A stretch of DNA of 56,700 nucleotides from a virus, in IMG/VR virus record IMGVR_UViG_3300037153_000087, positions 1-56,700 of that record. The stretch is one strand, 5' to 3'. Within the stretch, counting starts at the first letter, position 1, and every line of letters begins with the position of its first letter. The position numbers and the translations under genes are program-made. Below are positions 4,027 through 32,312 of the stretch, in pieces. The notes under the pieces are model-generated. The model did no database searches and was not told where the DNA came from. It saw only the letters and a program-made list of their open reading frames with translations.

Positions 4027-4056
4027 ATTCTATCACGAAGTGTGCCTCTCTGTCAA
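4027..4056 (-). promoter_or_regulatory. promoter of the Cro-like gene
   Basis: TTGACA-N18-TAGAAT reading leftward, with TGA directly before the -10 box. The -35 region reads TTGACAGAGAGGCAC, matching the first half of the common dyad. Confidence 0.75.
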
Positions 4057-5305: not shown

Positions 5306-5335
5306 TTGACACCCGGTCAACTCTCATGATAGAAT
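5306..5335 (+). promoter_or_regulatory. promoter of purB
   Basis: TTGACA-N18-TAGAAT with TGA before the -10 box. TTGACACCCGGTCAA is a perfect TTGAC-N5-GTCAA dyad over the -35 box. Confidence 0.85.
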
Positions 5336-5354
5336 CCGCTCCCAGGAGGTGCTC

Positions 5355-6764
5355 ATGCTAGAGCGTTACACGTTGGAGCCCGTTGGCTCCTATTGGACCC
5401 GCGCTGCTCAATACGATCTGTGGCGCGAGGTCGAGATCTACGCTGCTAAGGTCAAGGGTGCGCCTGACGGCATCCTACGTGCGTTGGTCGACACCCCGGT
5501 TCCCGCAATCGAGGCGATCGAAGCCGAGGAGCGACTCGTGCGTCACGATGTGGTCGCGTTCCTGAACATGTGGCGTGAGAACATGTCGGTCGACGTCGCT
5601 GCCTGGGTCCACAAGGGTATGACCTCGTCGGACCTGGTCGACACCGCCAACGCGCTTCGGCTGGCAGCGGTCACGGACGAGATCCTCACCCAAGCGGGCA
5701 AGCTGGAGTACCTGCTGGCCAAGCACGCTATCCACCACTGGAAGACTCCGAGGGTAGCGAGAACCCACGGGCAGAACGCCCAGGCCAGTAGCTGGGGCTA
5801 TCGCGTGGCAGACTTCACGATAGCCCTGGAGCGCGTCATCAGCATACTTCGGTACGCCAGGGCAGACGCCTGCGTGGCCAAGATCTCAGGACCGGTCGGC
5901 GACTACCGAGATTCGAGTCTCGCGATGGAGGTCGCGTTCGGTCGCGACATGGGCCTCGAAGCCGCGTTCAGTGCGACCCAGGTCGTCAGTCGGGATCGGC
6001 TGGCTACCCTCATGTTCGCTCTGTCGCAGGTAGCGACCGTCATCGAAGCGATCGCCCTGGAGGTTCGACTCTCCTCGCATTCGCAGGTCGGCGAGCTGAG
6101 CGAGGGATTCGGCGAGCAGCAGGCAGGCTCGTCGGCCATGCCGCACAAACAGAACCCGATCATCAGCGAGCAGCTTACCGGCCTCGCCAAGATCGTTCGC
6201 GCCCAGGTGGTTCCGATCCAGGAGGGGGTGGCGCTCTGGCACGAGCGCGACATCTCGCATTCCTCTGTCGAGCGGATCGCCGTGCAGACGGCTACCGTCG
6301 TCACGCACTTCATGTTGGTTCGGTGCATCGAGCTGTTCCAGGGCCTGAACGTCCACACCGAGATCATGCAAGCCAACCTCGACTCTGCGCGCGACGCCAC
6401 CCTCTCCGCGAGAATCAAAGACCACCTGATTGAGGAGGGCCTGCACCCGAACACGGCGTGGGACGTCGTCCGCGAGGCTGCCTCGATCCCGCACCCCGAC
6501 CTGATCGCCAAGACCAATCAGGTCCTGCACCAGCACGGGTACGGCGTTCGGGTTCCCTACTTCAATGACGAGCCGACTCCTCACCATGAGCACGTGCTCA
6601 AGCACATGAACACGCTGCGTCGCAGGCACGAGCCGAGAACCGTCTATTTCGTCCCCCGGATGGCCGACCTCGACGGACCGACACAGGAGGAGCTGGCCAA
6701 GGGTATCAGCCTTGACGAGTTCCTGCGCGACATCCAGATGGGGGATGGCGATGGGGGGAACTGA
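5355..6764 (+). CDS. purB: adenylosuccinate lyase (PurB), phage-encoded
   Basis: 469 residues, close to full bacterial PurB length. Family motifs are intact: HKGMTSSD (86-93), ARTHGQNAQ (135-143), and the flexible catalytic loop SSAMPHKQNP near 259-268. PurB removes fumarate from adenylosuccinate. With PurZ present, the likely phage substrate is N6-succino-2-amino-dAMP, yielding 2-amino-dAMP (dZMP). Published Z-DNA phages are generally described as using the host enzyme, so a dedicated copy is unusual. ATG 5355 lies five bases after AGGAGG. The gene is about 24 kb from purZ but under the same promoter type. Confidence 0.93.
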   Translation: MLERYTLEPVGSYWTRAAQYDLWREVEIYAAKVKGAPDGILRALVDTPVPAIEAIEAEERLVRHDVVAFLNMWRENMSVDVAAWVHKGMTSSDLVDTANALRLAAVTDEILTQAGKLEYLLAKHAIHHWKTPRVARTHGQNAQASSWGYRVADFTIALERVISILRYARADACVAKISGPVGDYRDSSLAMEVAFGRDMGLEAAFSATQVVSRDRLATLMFALSQVATVIEAIALEVRLSSHSQVGELSEGFGEQQAGSSAMPHKQNPIISEQLTGLAKIVRAQVVPIQEGVALWHERDISHSSVERIAVQTATVVTHFMLVRCIELFQGLNVHTEIMQANLDSARDATLSARIKDHLIEEGLHPNTAWDVVREAASIPHPDLIAKTNQVLHQHGYGVRVPYFNDEPTPHHEHVLKHMNTLRRRHEPRTVYFVPRMADLDGPTQEELAKGISLDEFLRDIQMGDGDGGN

Positions 6765-8848: not shown

Positions 8849-8861
8849 CTCCCCTTCCTAC

Positions 8862-12326: not shown

Positions 12327-14090
12327 TCATTCCGGAGGGCTCACGAGCGGCACCAGCTCTCTGGGGTCCGGAGTGGCCAGACGGTAGGTACCCGCCTGGT
12401 CATCCCGGATGATCTCGATCCCCTTCCGGTTGCGCAGCCGCTTGATGGCGTCGTAAACCTGCTTGGTCTCCAGCCGAAGACCCGTTTCGATCTCCTGCCG
12501 AGTGACCTCGTCCCGGTGCCGGAGCAGGTTCAGAACCCGAGTGTCAACCGTCAGCGGAACGCCACCCTCCCCCCAGGGAGAACCATCAAGCCCGACCTTG
12601 TAGTCGGCCAGCCTGGCGACCTCGCTGGCCAGGTCGGAGTCACTGATGTACGGTGCCTTCCGGGGGATCGGCTTGCGGTATTCCTCGTTGCGGATCAGGT
12701 ACTCGCCAGGCCCAGCCAGCAACGTGTTGGGGTCCCAGCCCTTAGACTTCCAGTCCTGGCCGAACGCGTATTGCGCGTGGGCTGCCTCCTCCAGCCGCGT
12801 GCAGATCCGGTTCTTGTAGTTGGTCCGGCTGTCCGTGCTCCCGCCGAAGGCCGCAGCGCTGGGTGCCTGGGTCGCCTCTAGCAGGTAGACGCCGAACGCG
12901 CGATAGAGCCGCGACGCCTCCGCGTTCAGCTCCGGCAACGTCGGTAGACCGTCTACCTTCCACTTCTTCGAGGTCAGCTCGGCCATCTCGTCGACCACCA
13001 GTAGGATGTACGGGCCAAACTCCTCGTCCCAGCTCCGGATACCCTCCCGGTTCATGATCTCCGACCGCCTGTCGGTCTCCTGGTCGAGCCAGTCGAAAAC
13101 GTCGCGAGCCTGGTACCCGTCCTTGGCCAGGGTGACCATCAGCGGGCTGACCGGAGCCAGCTCCACCCCCTTCTTCATGTCGATCCCCAACACCGCCATA
13201 CCCCGCTGGACCGCAGCGAGAATGAACTGGTTGGTGATGTTCGACTTGCCGTTGCCGCTCGTCCCGAGGACCAGCGTGTGACGGTCGAGCAGCTTCACGA
13301 GCGTGGCCGCGTCGTCCTCGTCGGGACCGAGGTAGACGGGGTCGGACAGGTCTCCAGCCGTGTCGGGCACGTACGCGATGACGCTCTCGAACGTGCGCTT
13401 AGCGGTGTACTTGACGATGAGCTGGTTGTCGGCCACACCGTCTTCGAGCGCGTACTTGCCAGTCCCCGCGAGGGCACCCGCGACCCTGCCCCAGTTGAGC
13501 CGGAGCTTGGCCCGATCGAGGCCAGGAGGGCAGGCGAGAACCATGCGGTAGCCGTTCTTGATCGGCTCCACGAACACGCCCAGAAGCTCCTGCTTGAACA
13601 GCTCCCAGACCGCCGTACGGATGGCCGTCTCCTCCTGCGTGTGACCCGTCAGCATGGGCTGGTACTCGGGCGTGAGCCGCTTTTCGAGCGTGAGCAGCGC
13701 GGTTTGCGCGCGGATCTCGCCGATGGCGTAGCGCTGGAGCTTGATCTTCTTGTCGAGGTCCTTCGTGGACGAGTGGTGCTCGAACCACAACCGCATCCCG
13801 AACGCGCTGGCCGAAGCTGCCAGCCAGGCCCAGAGGCTGACCACATCGACACCGAACCAGGTCACCGCCCCCGCATAGGCGAAAGCTCCGGCAAACCCGA
13901 ATGCGACTGGCCAACCCTTCTTAAACCCGATATAGGTGGCTCCAGCCGCAGCCGCGTACCCCAACATGGCCATGCCCTCCGGATTCGGAGAGTTGATGTG
14001 CATGGCGAGACCCGCCGACAGGATGAGTGTCGACGGGCCAATGGAGTACCCGACCCTCTTCAGGGCCTGGAACCTCGCCTCTCTGGTCAC
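12327..14090 (-). CDS. FtsK/SpoIIIE (TraB-like) DNA translocase
   Basis: 587 residues. N-terminal membrane region with about four hydrophobic segments (15-105), a linker, then an FtsK/SpoIIIE ATPase with Walker A LGTSGNGKSN near 277-285 and Walker B ILLVVDEMAEL near 361-371. The C-terminal winged helix (about 510-570: TRQEIETGLRLETKQVYDAIKRL) resembles FtsK-gamma and the DNA-reading domain of Streptomyces TraB. Such enzymes pump double-stranded DNA across membranes or septa in a sequence-oriented way. Starts four bases inside the Spd-like gene. A DNA-spreading role between hyphal compartments is inferred. Confidence 0.88.
   Translation of the reverse strand: MTREARFQALKRVGYSIGPSTLILSAGLAMHINSPNPEGMAMLGYAAAAGATYIGFKKGWPVAFGFAGAFAYAGAVTWFGVDVVSLWAWLAASASAFGMRLWFEHHSSTKDLDKKIKLQRYAIGEIRAQTALLTLEKRLTPEYQPMLTGHTQEETAIRTAVWELFKQELLGVFVEPIKNGYRMVLACPPGLDRAKLRLNWGRVAGALAGTGKYALEDGVADNQLIVKYTAKRTFESVIAYVPDTAGDLSDPVYLGPDEDDAATLVKLLDRHTLVLGTSGNGKSNITNQFILAAVQRGMAVLGIDMKKGVELAPVSPLMVTLAKDGYQARDVFDWLDQETDRRSEIMNREGIRSWDEEFGPYILLVVDEMAELTSKKWKVDGLPTLPELNAEASRLYRAFGVYLLEATQAPSAAAFGGSTDSRTNYKNRICTRLEEAAHAQYAFGQDWKSKGWDPNTLLAGPGEYLIRNEEYRKPIPRKAPYISDSDLASEVARLADYKVGLDGSPWGEGGVPLTVDTRVLNLLRHRDEVTRQEIETGLRLETKQVYDAIKRLRNRKGIEIIRDDQAGTYRLATPDPRELVPLVSPPE
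12558..12584 (+). repeat. dispersed CGCCACCCTCCCC repeat, fullest copy
   Basis: ACGCCACCCTCCCCCC followed by AGGGAGAACC, inside the FtsK-like gene; its complement contains GGGGAGGG. Confidence 0.75.
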
Positions 14091-14983
14091 GGCGTGTTGA
14101 CACCGCCCTTCTTGATCTCACGTCGGATGGCCGCCTCCAGCGACCCCCGGTTGACGTCCGGACGCTCGGTCACGATCGTGTTGAAAACCAAGTCCTTGGG
14201 AGCACCCTGGGCGAGCAGCTCGCGAACACGCTCGGCCATGCTCGGCGAGCTGCTCGAGCCGTTCGAGCCCGTGTTCGGGCCGGTGAGAACGCTGGTGTTC
14301 GGCTGCTCGACGAGCTGCTCGGTGTGCTCGTTCGAGCTGCTCGCGAGCTGCTCGGCACCCCACACGTCGCGCCTGCTCGCCTCGATCGCGAGCTTGAGGG
14401 CAACCGCCTGGTCGTCGGCCATGGCCACCTTGCGCAGGACCTCCGCGACAGCGAGCTGAGCGTGGGCCTTGCTGACCACCGCATTGACCCAAGCCTCGTG
14501 CTCAGGGTCGAGGTCCCGGTCGACGAACTTCATGATCGCGAGCCACAGGACCTTGGCGAACAGGCTGACAGCGGCACCGACGACGGCCAACGGGATGTTG
14601 TCAAGCACCACCCCATGCCAGCCGATGAAGAACATCGTGACGACGAGCAGAGCCCAGCCGAGGTTGCGCGGGAACCCGCGCTTCTTGGGGTCGAAGCGTG
14701 CCTTCCACTCCAGGATGAGGCAGATCGCCCAACTGATGTCGAACAGGAGAGCAGCCAGGAACCCGACGCCTCCGCCGAGAAGTTGGCCGATACTGACGGT
14801 CGACCAGGTGATCGCGATGAGCGTGAGGATGCCGACCAGACCGAACGCAAGACGCGTGGCCAGCTCGTCCCAGTTGCGCGGGATGATGGGGATCTTCTCG
14901 GTCTCCGTGACCATGACGGTCTCGGTACGGTCACCGATCGTAACTTCCTTGGGTACCTGCACGGTACGGACGTTGAACTTCAT
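14087..14983 (-). CDS. Spd/DUF2637-like membrane protein
   Basis: 298 residues. Cytoplasmic start, four membrane spans between about 40 and 160 (VGILTLIAITW, FLAALLFDISWAICLIL, ALLVVTMFFIG, VGAAVSLFAKVLWLAI), then a soluble tail with a Ser/Gly linker and a final helical domain (SMAERVRELLAQGAPKDLVF). Its layout matches Streptomyces plasmid Spd (spread) proteins and DUF2637, which accompany TraB translocases. It overlaps the FtsK-like start by four bases and shares its promoter. Confidence 0.65.
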   Translation of the reverse strand: MKFNVRTVQVPKEVTIGDRTETVMVTETEKIPIIPRNWDELATRLAFGLVGILTLIAITWSTVSIGQLLGGGVGFLAALLFDISWAICLILEWKARFDPKKRGFPRNLGWALLVVTMFFIGWHGVVLDNIPLAVVGAAVSLFAKVLWLAIMKFVDRDLDPEHEAWVNAVVSKAHAQLAVAEVLRKVAMADDQAVALKLAIEASRRDVWGAEQLASSSNEHTEQLVEQPNTSVLTGPNTGSNGSSSSPSMAERVRELLAQGAPKDLVFNTIVTERPDVNRGSLEAAIRREIKKGGVNTP

Positions 14984-19489: not shown

Positions 19490-20340
19490 GCCTGGCTGAC
19501 GAGAACGAGGTCGTGCGAGCCGTGTTCTACGGCAGGTACGGTACGGGCAAGACGACGGCAGCCGCTCACGCGGCTCATCTCGGCAAGATGGTCTACATCG
19601 ACGCCGAGAAGCGGCTCAAGGGCGGACCGCTGCGCAGGCTGGGGGTGCCGATCGACAACATCGAGCCCTTCCGCACGATCCAGCACGAGGCCCTGGAGAA
19701 GCTGATCTGGGACATCAAGGGTCGGCTGCACGACGAGCCTGGCAGCGTCGCTGCGATCGGGCTGGATGGTGTCGACGAGACCACCAAGCTGCTGGTCGGC
19801 GAGGTGCTCAACGAGAACACCGAGAAGCTGATGGCCCGAGCCGAGAAGCGTGGCGAGGTCGTCGAGGTCAACCCCTATCAGGTCGATATCGACATGTGGG
19901 GCGAGATGACCGAGCAGTTCAGGCGGTTCCTCAGGCACACGAAGGACCTCGACTGCCACCTGGTGTTCACCAGCCACGAGCGTCGAGTGCAGGACGACGA
20001 CGGCACCGTGAGCTACGGACCCGCTGCCACGCCTGCGGTCCAGGCCGACCTGATGAGCTATGTGGACGTGGTCGGCCACACATACATCGACGCGGGGTAC
20101 TACGTCGCCAGGTTCGCGCCTGGGACCAAGTACGAGGCCAAGGACACGTTCGGCGTTCTGCCTGCGGTCATGGCCAACCCCACCATGGATCGAGTCGTCG
20201 CCTACGTCAGGGAAGAGCTGACGGCGGAGACCGACCCGGTTCAGCAGGAGTACCTCACCCACAGAGCTGAAGTGGCCGCGAAGGCCAAGGACGCAATCGT
20301 GGCGTCCGGAGGTGAACGCAGGCGCAGAACCAGGGCTTGA
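19486..20340 (+). CDS. Sak4-like RecA-fold annealing ATPase
   Basis: 284 residues. Walker A GRYGTGKTT (16-24), Walker B IGLDGVDE (91-98), and a later VFTSHERR resembling the sensor region of RecA-like phage ATPases (Sak4/AAA_24). These proteins promote single-strand annealing together with a phage SSB. Neighbours fit: Cas4-like nuclease upstream, SSB-like protein downstream. ATG 19486 overlaps the previous stop. Confidence 0.8.
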   Translation: MSLADENEVVRAVFYGRYGTGKTTAAAHAAHLGKMVYIDAEKRLKGGPLRRLGVPIDNIEPFRTIQHEALEKLIWDIKGRLHDEPGSVAAIGLDGVDETTKLLVGEVLNENTEKLMARAEKRGEVVEVNPYQVDIDMWGEMTEQFRRFLRHTKDLDCHLVFTSHERRVQDDDGTVSYGPAATPAVQADLMSYVDVVGHTYIDAGYYVARFAPGTKYEAKDTFGVLPAVMANPTMDRVVAYVREELTAETDPVQQEYLTHRAEVAAKAKDAIVASGGERRRRTRA

Positions 20341-25962: not shown

Positions 25963-25992
25963 TTGACAGCCTGGCAAGTCCTATGATAGGAT
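25963..25992 (+). promoter_or_regulatory. promoter of the two small genes at 26 kb
   Basis: TTGACA-N18-TAGGAT with TGA before the -10 box, followed by a GGGGC/GCCCC leader hairpin at about 26002-26016. Confidence 0.85.
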
Positions 25993-26466: not shown

Positions 26467-26496
26467 TTGACGGAGCGTCAACCACCGTGATAGGAT
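26467..26496 (+). promoter_or_regulatory. promoter of the DNA polymerase gene
   Basis: TTGACG-N18-TAGGAT; TTGACGGAGCGTCAA is a perfect 15-bp dyad. A leader hairpin GAGCCCC/GGGGCTC (about 26505-26531) sits before the ribosome site. Confidence 0.85.
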
Positions 26497-30381: not shown

Positions 30382-30629
30382 TGGAAGTTGGAGCCAAGGA
30401 CACGTTGGGTCGAGTGCTGAGGATCATCCGGAACCGTAAGGTCCTGGTCAGGAGCCAGCAGACTCACAGCATCGCGGTGTGCGAAACCGAAGGGTGCGGC
30501 TGGTCGCTGGAGGGCAAGAACGCGATGGGCGTCGGCAGCCAGCACGCAGCGTCGAAGTGCCACAAGGTGAACGTGCGGCGCGAGGTGCAGACTGAGTACG
30601 ACGGCGAGACGCCCAACGTCCGGGCTTGA
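30381..30629 (+). CDS. 82-residue zinc-finger-like protein
   Basis: CETEGCGWSLEG...GSQHAASKCHKV gives C-x4-C...H...C-H zinc ligands. Overlaps the resolvase stop by one base. No family recognised; may be a DNA-binding partner. Confidence 0.6.
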   Translation: MEVGAKDTLGRVLRIIRNRKVLVRSQQTHSIAVCETEGCGWSLEGKNAMGVGSQHAASKCHKVNVRREVQTEYDGETPNVRA

Positions 30630-30655
30630 CAGCCTGGCAGATCCTATGATAAGCT
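30626..30655 (+). promoter_or_regulatory. promoter of purZ
   Basis: TTGACA-N18-TAAGCT with TGA before the -10 box; nearly identical to the promoters at 20337 and 25963. The -35 overlaps the end of the upstream gene. Confidence 0.88.
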
Positions 30656-30685: not shown

Positions 30686-31828
30686 ATGGGTGGTAAGATC
30701 AGCGTCGTCGTCGGCGGACAGTTCGGGTCGGAGGCCAAGGGCGCGGTTGCCGGGTTCCTCTCGTCCGACCGCAACTGGTGGACCCGTCCGGCTCGACAGA
30801 CGGTCTGCGTGAGGGTCGGTGGCCCGAACGCTGGACACACGGTCTACGGGAGCTGCCCGAGCGACTGCGACGAGGGCGGAACCCCGGCTCACGAGCTGGG
30901 TCACCCCTGGCGACTCCGCCAGATCCCGGTCGCTGCCGTCACCAACCCGGAGTCCCAGCTCCTCATCGCGGCTGGCTCCGAGGTGGACATGTCGGTCCTC
31001 CGGGAGGAGTGGCGTCAGCTCAACAGCGCGGGTTACCAGCTCAGGGGTCGGCTCAACATCGACTACAGCGCGACCCTGCTGGAGGAGCGGCACATCACGC
31101 AGGAGCAGGGCGACGGGCTCAACGGTAGGATCGGCTCGACGGCCAAGGGCATCGGAGCCGCGAGGGCAGACCGAATCTGGCGCAAGGCGAGCATCATGCG
31201 CAGCCAGTACGACGTCATGAGGGCGATGGGTATCCTGCTCGTCGACTCGACCACCATGCTGACGATGCGGCTCGAAGCGCAGAACCACGTGATCATCGAG
31301 GGCACCCAGGGCTACGGGCTGGGCCTGCACACCGAGTTCTATCCGCAGGTCACGAGCGGCAACTGCCGAGCCATCGACTTCCTGGCGCAGTGCGGCATCA
31401 GCCCCTGGTCGGCGATGGTGACCGACCTCGACGTGTGGGTGGTCGCCAGGACCTACCCGATCCGGGTCGCTGGCAACAGCGGTCCGCTGGCCGACGAGAC
31501 CTCGTGGGAAGAGCTGGGTCTGGAGCCCGAACAGACCACCGTCACCAAGAAGACTCGGCGAGTCGGCGGATGGGACGGCGAGCTGGTTCGACGCGCGGTG
31601 TGGGCGAACGGCGGAGGCTGGAACGACCATGTCAAGATCGCGCTGATGATGGCCGACTACAAGATCCCTGGGCTCAAGGGGATCCGCGACAGCAACGACA
31701 TCAACAACCAGGATTACGATGCTCTCCAGAAGCTGGTACGCGAGGTCGAGGGGCAGACCGACGCCCGTGTGGGCCTGGTCGGAACTGGCCCGACGTCCAT
31801 TCTCGATCTTCGCGGCTGGAACCTCTGA
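30686..31828 (+). CDS. purZ: PurZ, aminodeoxyadenylosuccinate synthetase
   Basis: 380 residues of the adenylosuccinate synthetase fold. VVVGGQFGSEAKG has Ser15 where PurA has its catalytic Asp (Asp13 in E. coli), the signature change of PurZ, which joins Asp to dGMP rather than to IMP. Other parts are kept: GGPNAGHTV (His51), IGSTAKGIGAA, EGTQGYGLGLHTEFYPQVTS in altered form, and YPIRVAGNSGP. It starts the 2-aminoadenine pathway. ATG follows ACAGGAGG. The next gene overlaps its stop. Confidence 0.93.
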   Translation: MGGKISVVVGGQFGSEAKGAVAGFLSSDRNWWTRPARQTVCVRVGGPNAGHTVYGSCPSDCDEGGTPAHELGHPWRLRQIPVAAVTNPESQLLIAAGSEVDMSVLREEWRQLNSAGYQLRGRLNIDYSATLLEERHITQEQGDGLNGRIGSTAKGIGAARADRIWRKASIMRSQYDVMRAMGILLVDSTTMLTMRLEAQNHVIIEGTQGYGLGLHTEFYPQVTSGNCRAIDFLAQCGISPWSAMVTDLDVWVVARTYPIRVAGNSGPLADETSWEELGLEPEQTTVTKKTRRVGGWDGELVRRAVWANGGGWNDHVKIALMMADYKIPGLKGIRDSNDINNQDYDALQKLVREVEGQTDARVGLVGTGPTSILDLRGWNL

Positions 31829-31926
31829 TGGGCAAGCAGGTGCAGGTCAAGAAGCAAGGCAAGAAGCCCAAGCCTGCGACCGACATCGACCGGCGCAGCC
31901 CGAGCGGCAAGGAGCACAAGAACTGA
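31828..31926 (+). CDS. 32-residue basic peptide between purZ and mazZ
   Basis: MGKQVQVKKQGKKPKPATD and a short polar tail; nine Lys. TGATG overlaps at both ends couple it to purZ and to the MazZ-like gene. It may be a real peptide or mainly a translational bridge. Confidence 0.5.
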   Translation: MGKQVQVKKQGKKPKPATDIDRRSPSGKEHKN

Positions 31927-32312
31927 TGAACAAGCTCAAGCGCGAGCAGCTCGCTACGGAGCTGGCCACCTGGTGGCAGCTCAAGGCGAGCGACGAGACC
32001 GACATGGTGGTCGGCAAGGCAGTCGAGTACGGAGGCGAGGGAGCGGCCATCGACCTGCTGGACATCGGCTACGCGATGGCACTCGCGATCGGTCGGGAGG
32101 TCGACGACGAGGAGGCCACCGAGCTGGGGATCTACTTCTACATGGTCGGCAAGATGGCCAGGTGGAAGGCCGCAGTGACCGAGGGCAGGCGCGTCAGCGA
32201 CGACACGATCCTCGACATCGGCATCTACTGCCGGATGGCCCAGCGTAACCGCGAAGTCGGTGGCTGGCCGTTCGGTCCGAAGCCCCCGACGACGGAGATC
32301 GTCAAGCCGTAA
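31926..32312 (+). CDS. MazG-like nucleotide pyrophosphohydrolase (MazZ candidate)
   Basis: 128 residues, all-helical. KAVEYG (Glu34), LLDIGYA (Asp46), EEATELGIYFYMVGKMARW (Glu62-66, Lys76, Arg79) and DDTILDIGIYCRMAQR (Asp92, 93, 97) give the metal-binding pattern of all-alpha NTP pyrophosphatases. In Z-DNA phages MazZ converts (d)GTP to (d)GMP, the PurZ substrate. Co-transcribed with purZ. A general dNTP-sanitising role is the alternative. Confidence 0.7.
   Translation: MNKLKREQLATELATWWQLKASDETDMVVGKAVEYGGEGAAIDLLDIGYAMALAIGREVDDEEATELGIYFYMVGKMARWKAAVTEGRRVSDDTILDIGIYCRMAQRNREVGGWPFGPKPPTTEIVKP

Follow-up and report, generated by a model that had tools for sequence, protein, structure and literature searches.

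A tailed phage genome with a PurZ0-type gene set for predicted 2-aminoadenine DNA and a purZ-linked gene family without a name

The stretch of DNA analysed here (the window) covers the whole of an IMG/VR record of an uncultivated virus and has 56,700 bases. It belongs to a tailed phage. We consider it likely, with good confidence, that the window represents the whole or most of the genome and that this phage uses the PurZ0 route to make DNA with 2-aminoadenine (Z). Very probably, every adenine in the phage DNA would be replaced by 2-aminoadenine. The pathway is a version that has already been described, together with the phage's own PurB, and the phage joins the known PurZ0 Z-DNA phages, adding a deep branch within the PurZ0 group. 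The nearest known phages are the Streptomyces phages Galactica, Keanu and Hiyaa. Z-DNA phages provide a natural example of genomes with one of the four bases fully replaced. The lead of most interest is a PurZ0-linked gene family that has no name.

At the right of the window, the minus strand encodes a terminase, portal, head protease, major head protein, tape measure and endolysin. The plus strand carries a replication block with genes for a Sak4-like recombinase, an exonuclease, a prim-pol, a DinG-like helicase and the family A polymerase. Positions 12327–14090 (minus strand) encode an FtsK/SpoIIIE-like protein and adjoin positions 14087–14983 (minus strand), which encode a PHROG 35187 protein. 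No tRNAs or Rfam families were found in the window. A megablast comparison of positions 20000–44000 with the phage collection found no close relatives, and matches were limited to short purZ stretches. Features of the predicted pathway are listed in Table 1.

Table 1. Positions of the predicted pathway genes and of associated promoter-like sites in the window
Feature	Position	Strand	Basis
Promoter-like site upstream of purB	5306..5335	+	consensus match
Phage purB, adenylosuccinate lyase family	5355..6764	+	Lyase_1 6.1e-34; signature residues
Promoter-like site upstream of polymerase gene group	25963..25992	+	consensus match
Promoter-like site, 1 mismatch, 55 nt before polymerase gene	26467..26496	+	consensus match
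DpoZ-type family A DNA polymerase with 3'-5' exonuclease, 679 aa	26552..28591	+	NF038381; clade; motifs
Promoter-like site directly upstream of purZ	30626..30655	+	consensus match
purZ0, predicted 2-amino-deoxyadenylosuccinate synthetase, 380 aa	30686..31828	+	NF038379; 7vf6; tree
Putative 32-aa basic ORF, MGKQVQVKKQGKKPKPATDIDRRSPSGKEHKN	31828..31926	+	start/stop overlap with both neighbours
128-aa protein, PurZ0-linked family without a name, proposed dNTP pyrophosphohydrolase	31926..32312	+	linkage; hhalign; AlphaFold2
dmtZ-dutZ fusion, 297 aa	32367..33260	+	Pfam dUTPase 5.3e-23; DmtZ residues; dUTPase motifs

The PurZ0 gene set

The window PurZ begins with MGGKISVVVGGQFGS15EAKG, where Ser15 is at the position of the catalytic Asp. 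A sequence-only reading of this DNA had reported this PurZ, and the coordinates of the gene are exactly 30686–31828. A PurZ is recognised by Ser or Gly replacing the catalytic Asp, and Ser15 aligns with Ser in 14 of 14 PurZ references. The protein passes the NCBIfam PurZ model NF038379 (E 1.2e-102, 343.1 bits vs a cut-off of 300), but it does not pass the NCBIfam PurA models (132 vs 395.6 bits). The solved structure closest in sequence is PDB 7vf6 (E 2.9e-80). A tree of 34 PurZ sequences places the window protein on the PurZ0 side, with a split of 100/100 from the PurZ of S-2L, SH-Ab 15497 and phiVC8. Identities are 45–56% to PurZ0 and 34–35% to classical PurZ. The tree split and the adjacent dutZ together assign the protein to the PurZ0 subgroup; dutZ is adjacent to purZ in all PurZ0 genomes described in PMC12884076. 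A search of IMG/VR with peptide patterns found no close relative of the window PurZ. Residues at about positions 55–75 form a Cys-containing insertion (YGSCPSDC...) that is present, among the aligned PurZ0, in the window and Streptomyces phages only. The deepest PurZ on the PurZ0 side are from loci L038 and L039 (34% identity), where the order is altered and dutZ sits between purZ and the gene of the 128-aa family.

We give hardly any weight to the explanation that the phage has normal DNA and that these genes are plain auxiliary genes of purine synthesis, serving to boost AMP. It would account for the homology to PurA and PurB, but not for the Ser in place of the PurA catalytic Asp, the match to the PurZ and not the PurA model, or the presence of dutZ, dmtZ and a PurZ0-clade polymerase along with purZ.

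The dmtZ-dutZ fusion is preceded by a clear ribosome binding site. The sequence-only reading had named purZ, purB and a polymerase for the pathway, and these are present, but it missed this gene. The predicted layout is an N-terminal NDT-like dAMP hydrolase/transferase followed by a C-terminal dUTPase-like dATP/dGTP diphosphatase. The NDT part is weak in Pfam (E 0.027), so the DmtZ assignment rests on alignment with known DmtZ. In this alignment Y4, D10, P39, N60, E86 and W115 of the window protein correspond to Y6, D12, P57, N77, E103 and W124 of DmtZ from Gordonia phage Ghobes, i.e., the catalytic Tyr, Asn and Glu together with Asp12, Pro57 and Trp124 in Ghobes numbering. The six residues are conserved in 8 of 8 aligned sequences, and in Ghobes DmtZ they have been tested or modelled as important (PMC12884076). 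The DutZ part has the dUTPase motifs and an RSS[TA] motif that aligns with other DutZ, and it is fused to DmtZ. DmtZ and DutZ enzymes have been shown to hydrolyse dATP and dGTP, convert dAMP to adenine and transfer deoxyribose phosphate to the Z base in work on Arthrobacter phage Wayne, where the two are fused, and on Ghobes, where they are separate (PMC12884076).

The phage PurB, claimed earlier, matches Lyase_1 and has the GSSAMPHKQNP signature with conserved RTHGQ and TSSD motifs. An alternative GTG start at position 5349 would add two codons. The protein shares 46% identity with the PurB of Hiyaa-type phages; Gordonia PurB represents a separate lineage. Of 30 virus records with a gene of the 128-aa family, many of them fragments, 15 encode a PurB-like lyase. 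In PMC12884076 this step is assigned to host enzymes and PurB is not mentioned in the main text. The expected reaction of the window PurB is from dSMP to dZMP.

The PolA-type polymerase, also claimed earlier, has intact exonuclease and polymerase motifs. Its best NCBIfam match is NF038381 DpoZ_2 at 275 bits; this is below the cut-off of 350, so the protein is not placed in DpoZ by the NCBIfam measure. NCBIfam DpoZ_2 and the DpoZ-1 of PurZ0 phages in PMC12884076 are separate namings. A tree places the polymerase in the clade of PurZ0 phages with support of 100/99, apart from the DpoZ of SH-Ab and phiVC8 and from an outgroup of five PolA of phages chosen as non-Z. The window protein has its own deep branch, with a best identity of 37%. 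This deep branch and the score below the DpoZ cut-off would be consistent with a phage that makes dZTP but replaces adenine only partly because a DpoZ-like polymerase discriminates poorly. The clade support argues against partial replacement, as does the presence of DutZ and DmtZ, which would clear dATP and dAMP, and we regard it as improbable.

PurZ0, the PurZ0-clade polymerase, DmtZ-DutZ and PurB lend good support to the earlier proposal that the phage carries Z-DNA. The route named for it (PurZ with MazZ/DatZ and DpoZ) was the wrong branch, because DatZ, MazZ, DUF550 and DUF5664 were not detectable in the window by tblastn, profile or Pfam search and the PurZ0 set of PMC12884076 is present instead. 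The Pfam search for DUF5664 is weak by itself, as it gave no match in any control genome either. The description of the pathway as complete was too strong: no kinases for the conversion of dZMP to dZTP were found in the window, and these must therefore be the host's.

In the proposed pathway, DutZ, probably with the 128-aa protein, would convert dATP and dGTP to dAMP and dGMP, which would remove dATP and feed PurZ0. PurZ0 would combine dGMP and aspartate to give N6-succino-2-amino-dAMP (dSMP), the phage PurB would release fumarate from dSMP to yield dZMP, and host kinases would produce dZTP. DmtZ would convert dAMP to adenine or move its deoxyribose phosphate to a free Z base, and the phage family A polymerase would prefer Z opposite T. 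Other groups have demonstrated the DutZ, DmtZ and PurZ reactions in relatives (PMC12884076, PMC8342488). What the genome establishes directly is that the genes are present and syntenic, that they fall in the stated families and that catalytic residues are conserved. We infer that the proteins act as they do in relatives and that virion DNA would have Z in place of A. The earlier reading proposed that such DNA would resist many restriction enzymes and CRISPR nucleases; the protection provided by Z has been described as partial (PMC12884076).

The gene family downstream of purZ

The reading frame that ends at position 32312 is open from 31719, which is inside purZ. Codon composition and start-stop overlaps favor a start at 31926, giving 128 aa, over one at 31719. 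The purZ stop TGA (31826–31828) overlaps an ATG at 31828, and the TGA at 31924–31926 overlaps the ATG at 31926. The 128-aa gene had been described as directly following purZ, but the putative 32-aa ORF intervenes.

Searches of Pfam, NCBIfam and PHROGs with the 128-aa protein gave nothing at E<=1, and the family is not mentioned in the text of PMC12884076. Relatives are present in 31 phage records (18 Microbacterium, 6 Gordonia, 5 Streptomyces, 1 Curtobacterium and 1 Micrococcus). A search for PurZ gave the same counts for Microbacterium, Gordonia and Streptomyces, and the Curtobacterium and Micrococcus phages also have purZ. No Arthrobacter record has a gene of this family, though 105 carry PurZ. 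The order purZ, 128-aa family gene, dutZ (with dmtZ where present) is shared by phages of all five of the former host genera. A comparison of 35 contigs, obtained from two IMG/VR scans and one genome-contig scan (24 + 10 new + 1), shows purZ just upstream of the family gene in 34, the exception being truncated by the contig edge. In the same contigs dutZ is nearby in 35, DmtZ in 25 and DUF5664 in none. Independent cases of linkage number fewer than 35, because the set includes a few duplicates and known phages (L038/L039, L052/L053, L035 Hiyaa, L036 Ghobes); 44 further IMG/VR loci, noted with DUF1599, lie outside this neighbourhood check. The family has so far been seen only beside purZ and is tied to PurZ, as read from a pattern search that favors close relatives and could miss remote homologues outside PurZ phages.

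In Streptomyces phages (L005:10113–11465, L002:13133–14080 and L006:10119–11378) the 128-aa domain is preceded, in the same protein, by an N-terminal part that is rich in Cys/His pairs and is possibly zinc-binding. A purZ, 128-aa family, dmtZ, dutZ block is also present in L045 (CAIOKD010000330.1), a 14.6-kb contig binned in a Verrucomicrobia MAG, which is probably a phage contig in that bin.

Profile-profile comparison indicates that the 128-aa family is a distant relative of Pfam DUF1599 (PF07659), termed "Nucleotide modification associated domain 1" (Nmad1). The hhalign score is 38.9 (P 2.5e-6), compared with 20.2 or less for 200 column-shuffled profiles and 16.2 for a reversed profile, and a second alignment pair gives P 1.1e-5. 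By direct Pfam search the window protein has no DUF1599 match at E<=1. The matched block pairs GK..R...(S)DDT..DI..Y of the 128-aa family with DK..R...EDTL.DL.NY of DUF1599, and the K..[DE]YG, GK/DK..R and [DE]DT..D..Y motifs are conserved in both. A literature search found no paper on the activity of DUF1599/Nmad1.

The AlphaFold2 model of the 128-aa protein (pLDDT 89) displays four helices, and models of the family and of DUF1599 have an identical four-helix order. The 128-aa model has no significant match in the PDB (iMazG gives Z 4.1 at rmsd 11), and no significant solved structure was found for the family by sequence or Foldseek. Matches of the DUF1599 model to the PDB are also not significant; the top hit is AF_0060 (Z 7.6), and Z values of 4–5 are reached by several MazG-superfamily proteins. 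AF_0060 is classed with the all-alpha NTP pyrophosphatases. DUF6378 is another candidate for the nearest family: in BFVD, DUF6378 proteins are listed for the 128-aa model with a probability of 0.99 but an E value of about 0.1. The DUF6378 profile, from two sequences only, gives P 0.009 against the 128-aa family, and DUF6378 has no match in 289 whole genomes.

Residues K31, E66, K76, R79, D93 and D97 are invariant in the 128-aa family, match conserved DUF1599 positions and resemble a site for metal and phosphate. The classical ExxE/ExxD spacing is absent. On the basis of the distant DUF1599 kinship, the resemblance of the DUF1599 model to AF_0060 and the MazG superfamily, and the gene linkage, the 128-aa protein is proposed to be a dNTP pyrophosphohydrolase, the probable substrates being dATP/dGTP or another dNTP.

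The proposal that the 128-aa protein is MazZ was rejected. The family scores 14.6 by hhalign against 12 MazZ-1 sequences, where the reversed control scores 15.2, and the MazZ counterparts of phiVC8 and SH-Ab (MazZ-2/DUF550) give no homology signal. These values, the failure to detect any of the DatZ/MazZ-type genes and the position of PurZ on the PurZ0 side make it very improbable that the pathway is of the classical DatZ/MazZ type with the 128-aa protein as MazZ, a dGTP pyrophosphohydrolase, even though the gene follows purZ, like mazZ in S-2L, and the fold predicted for the distantly related DUF1599 resembles MazG-superfamily structures. The earlier term "MazG-like" does not hold as kinship to S-2L MazZ by profile; it is possible only at the level of the superfamily, which is recognised by the MazG-HisE fold, because MazG-superfamily structures are listed for the predicted fold of DUF1599.

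A rather unlikely alternative, although one of appreciable weight, accepts the Z pathway but gives the 128-aa protein a role other than that of a nucleotide-pool enzyme, as a partner of PurZ0, as a regulator or as an actor on the polymerase or Z-DNA. The long N-terminal extensions often fused to the family, the missing ExxE/ExxD spacing and the lack of a solved relative by Foldseek would all be consistent with such a role, as would the restriction of the family to PurZ phages, whose DutZ already provides dATP and dGTP hydrolysis. Against it, the invariant residues resemble a metal/phosphate site and match DUF1599, and in Wayne the same slot is held by an active dNTP hydrolase, DUF5664-1 (PMC12884076).

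We assign about even weight to the combined proposal that the 128-aa protein represents an unrecognised family dedicated to Z-DNA, an Nmad1-related dNTP pyrophosphohydrolase (most likely of dATP and/or dGTP) that replaces DUF5664-1/MazZ in PurZ0 phages other than those of Arthrobacter, and that the phage PurB frees many of these phages from host PurB. If the protein is a pool enzyme, it would complete the PurZ0 pathway outside Arthrobacter phages and provide a first testable function near the Nmad1 families.

Promoter-like sites and repeats

A promoter-like site, TTGACA-N15-TGATAnnnT, is present in 11 copies in the window (<=1 mismatch), compared with 0.08 expected by shuffling. The near-identical sites are of the extended -10 type and are found at positions 4027–4056 and at 5306, 15038, 15124, 18453, 20337, 23929, 25963, 26467, 30626 and 34493. 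The purB gene, purZ and the polymerase group thus appear to have one shared putative promoter class, which fits joint expression. The spacers of the 11 sites also have letters in common, which may point to a bound repressor.

A second promoter-like repeat, ACTTGACACGGGGGCACGCTTGTGGTTTAAT, is found in the left arm at positions 8860, 9539 and 10449 (also 7853). The 13-nt motif CGCCACCNYCCCC has 14 copies vs 0.04 expected by shuffling, mostly on one strand, and is located both within and between genes (positions 1989, 9795, 12560, 15427, 21170, 24945, 25349, 27409, 29525, 33272, 36327, 42727, 50465 and 55483).

Comparison with known Z-DNA phages

Z-DNA is proven in cyanophage S-2L, vibriophage phiVC8 and acinetophage SH-Ab 15497. 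These phages have a classical PurZ, which shares the Asp-to-Ser change with the window PurZ at the 34–35% identity given above, but they carry DatZ with MazZ/DUF550 where the window has DutZ/DmtZ. The replication enzymes also differ: the polymerases of SH-Ab and phiVC8 are in a different clade, and S-2L has a PrimPol.

Arthrobacter phage Wayne (PMC12884076) has a PurZ0 and a DmtZ-DutZ fusion, like the window, but its purZ is followed by DUF5664-1. Neither PurB nor a gene of the 128-aa family was detected in Arthrobacter phages. Ghobes, a characterised PurZ0 phage (PMC12884076), is similar to the window in having PurZ0, DutZ, DmtZ, PurB and a PurZ0-clade polymerase, and its gene 51, which follows purZ, is a homologue of the window 128-aa protein. 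It differs in that DmtZ and DutZ are separate genes and PurB is of another lineage (33% identity).

The Hiyaavirus phages of Streptomyces (Galactica, Hiyaa, Keanu and Spocter) share with the window PurZ0 (53–56% identity), the fused DmtZ-DutZ, PurB and a family A polymerase. Their genomes are 81–83 kb and have no near-identical DNA. The protein encoded after purZ has the same domain at its C-terminus; in Hiyaavirus this domain forms the end of a 315–450-aa protein, whereas in the window it stands alone.
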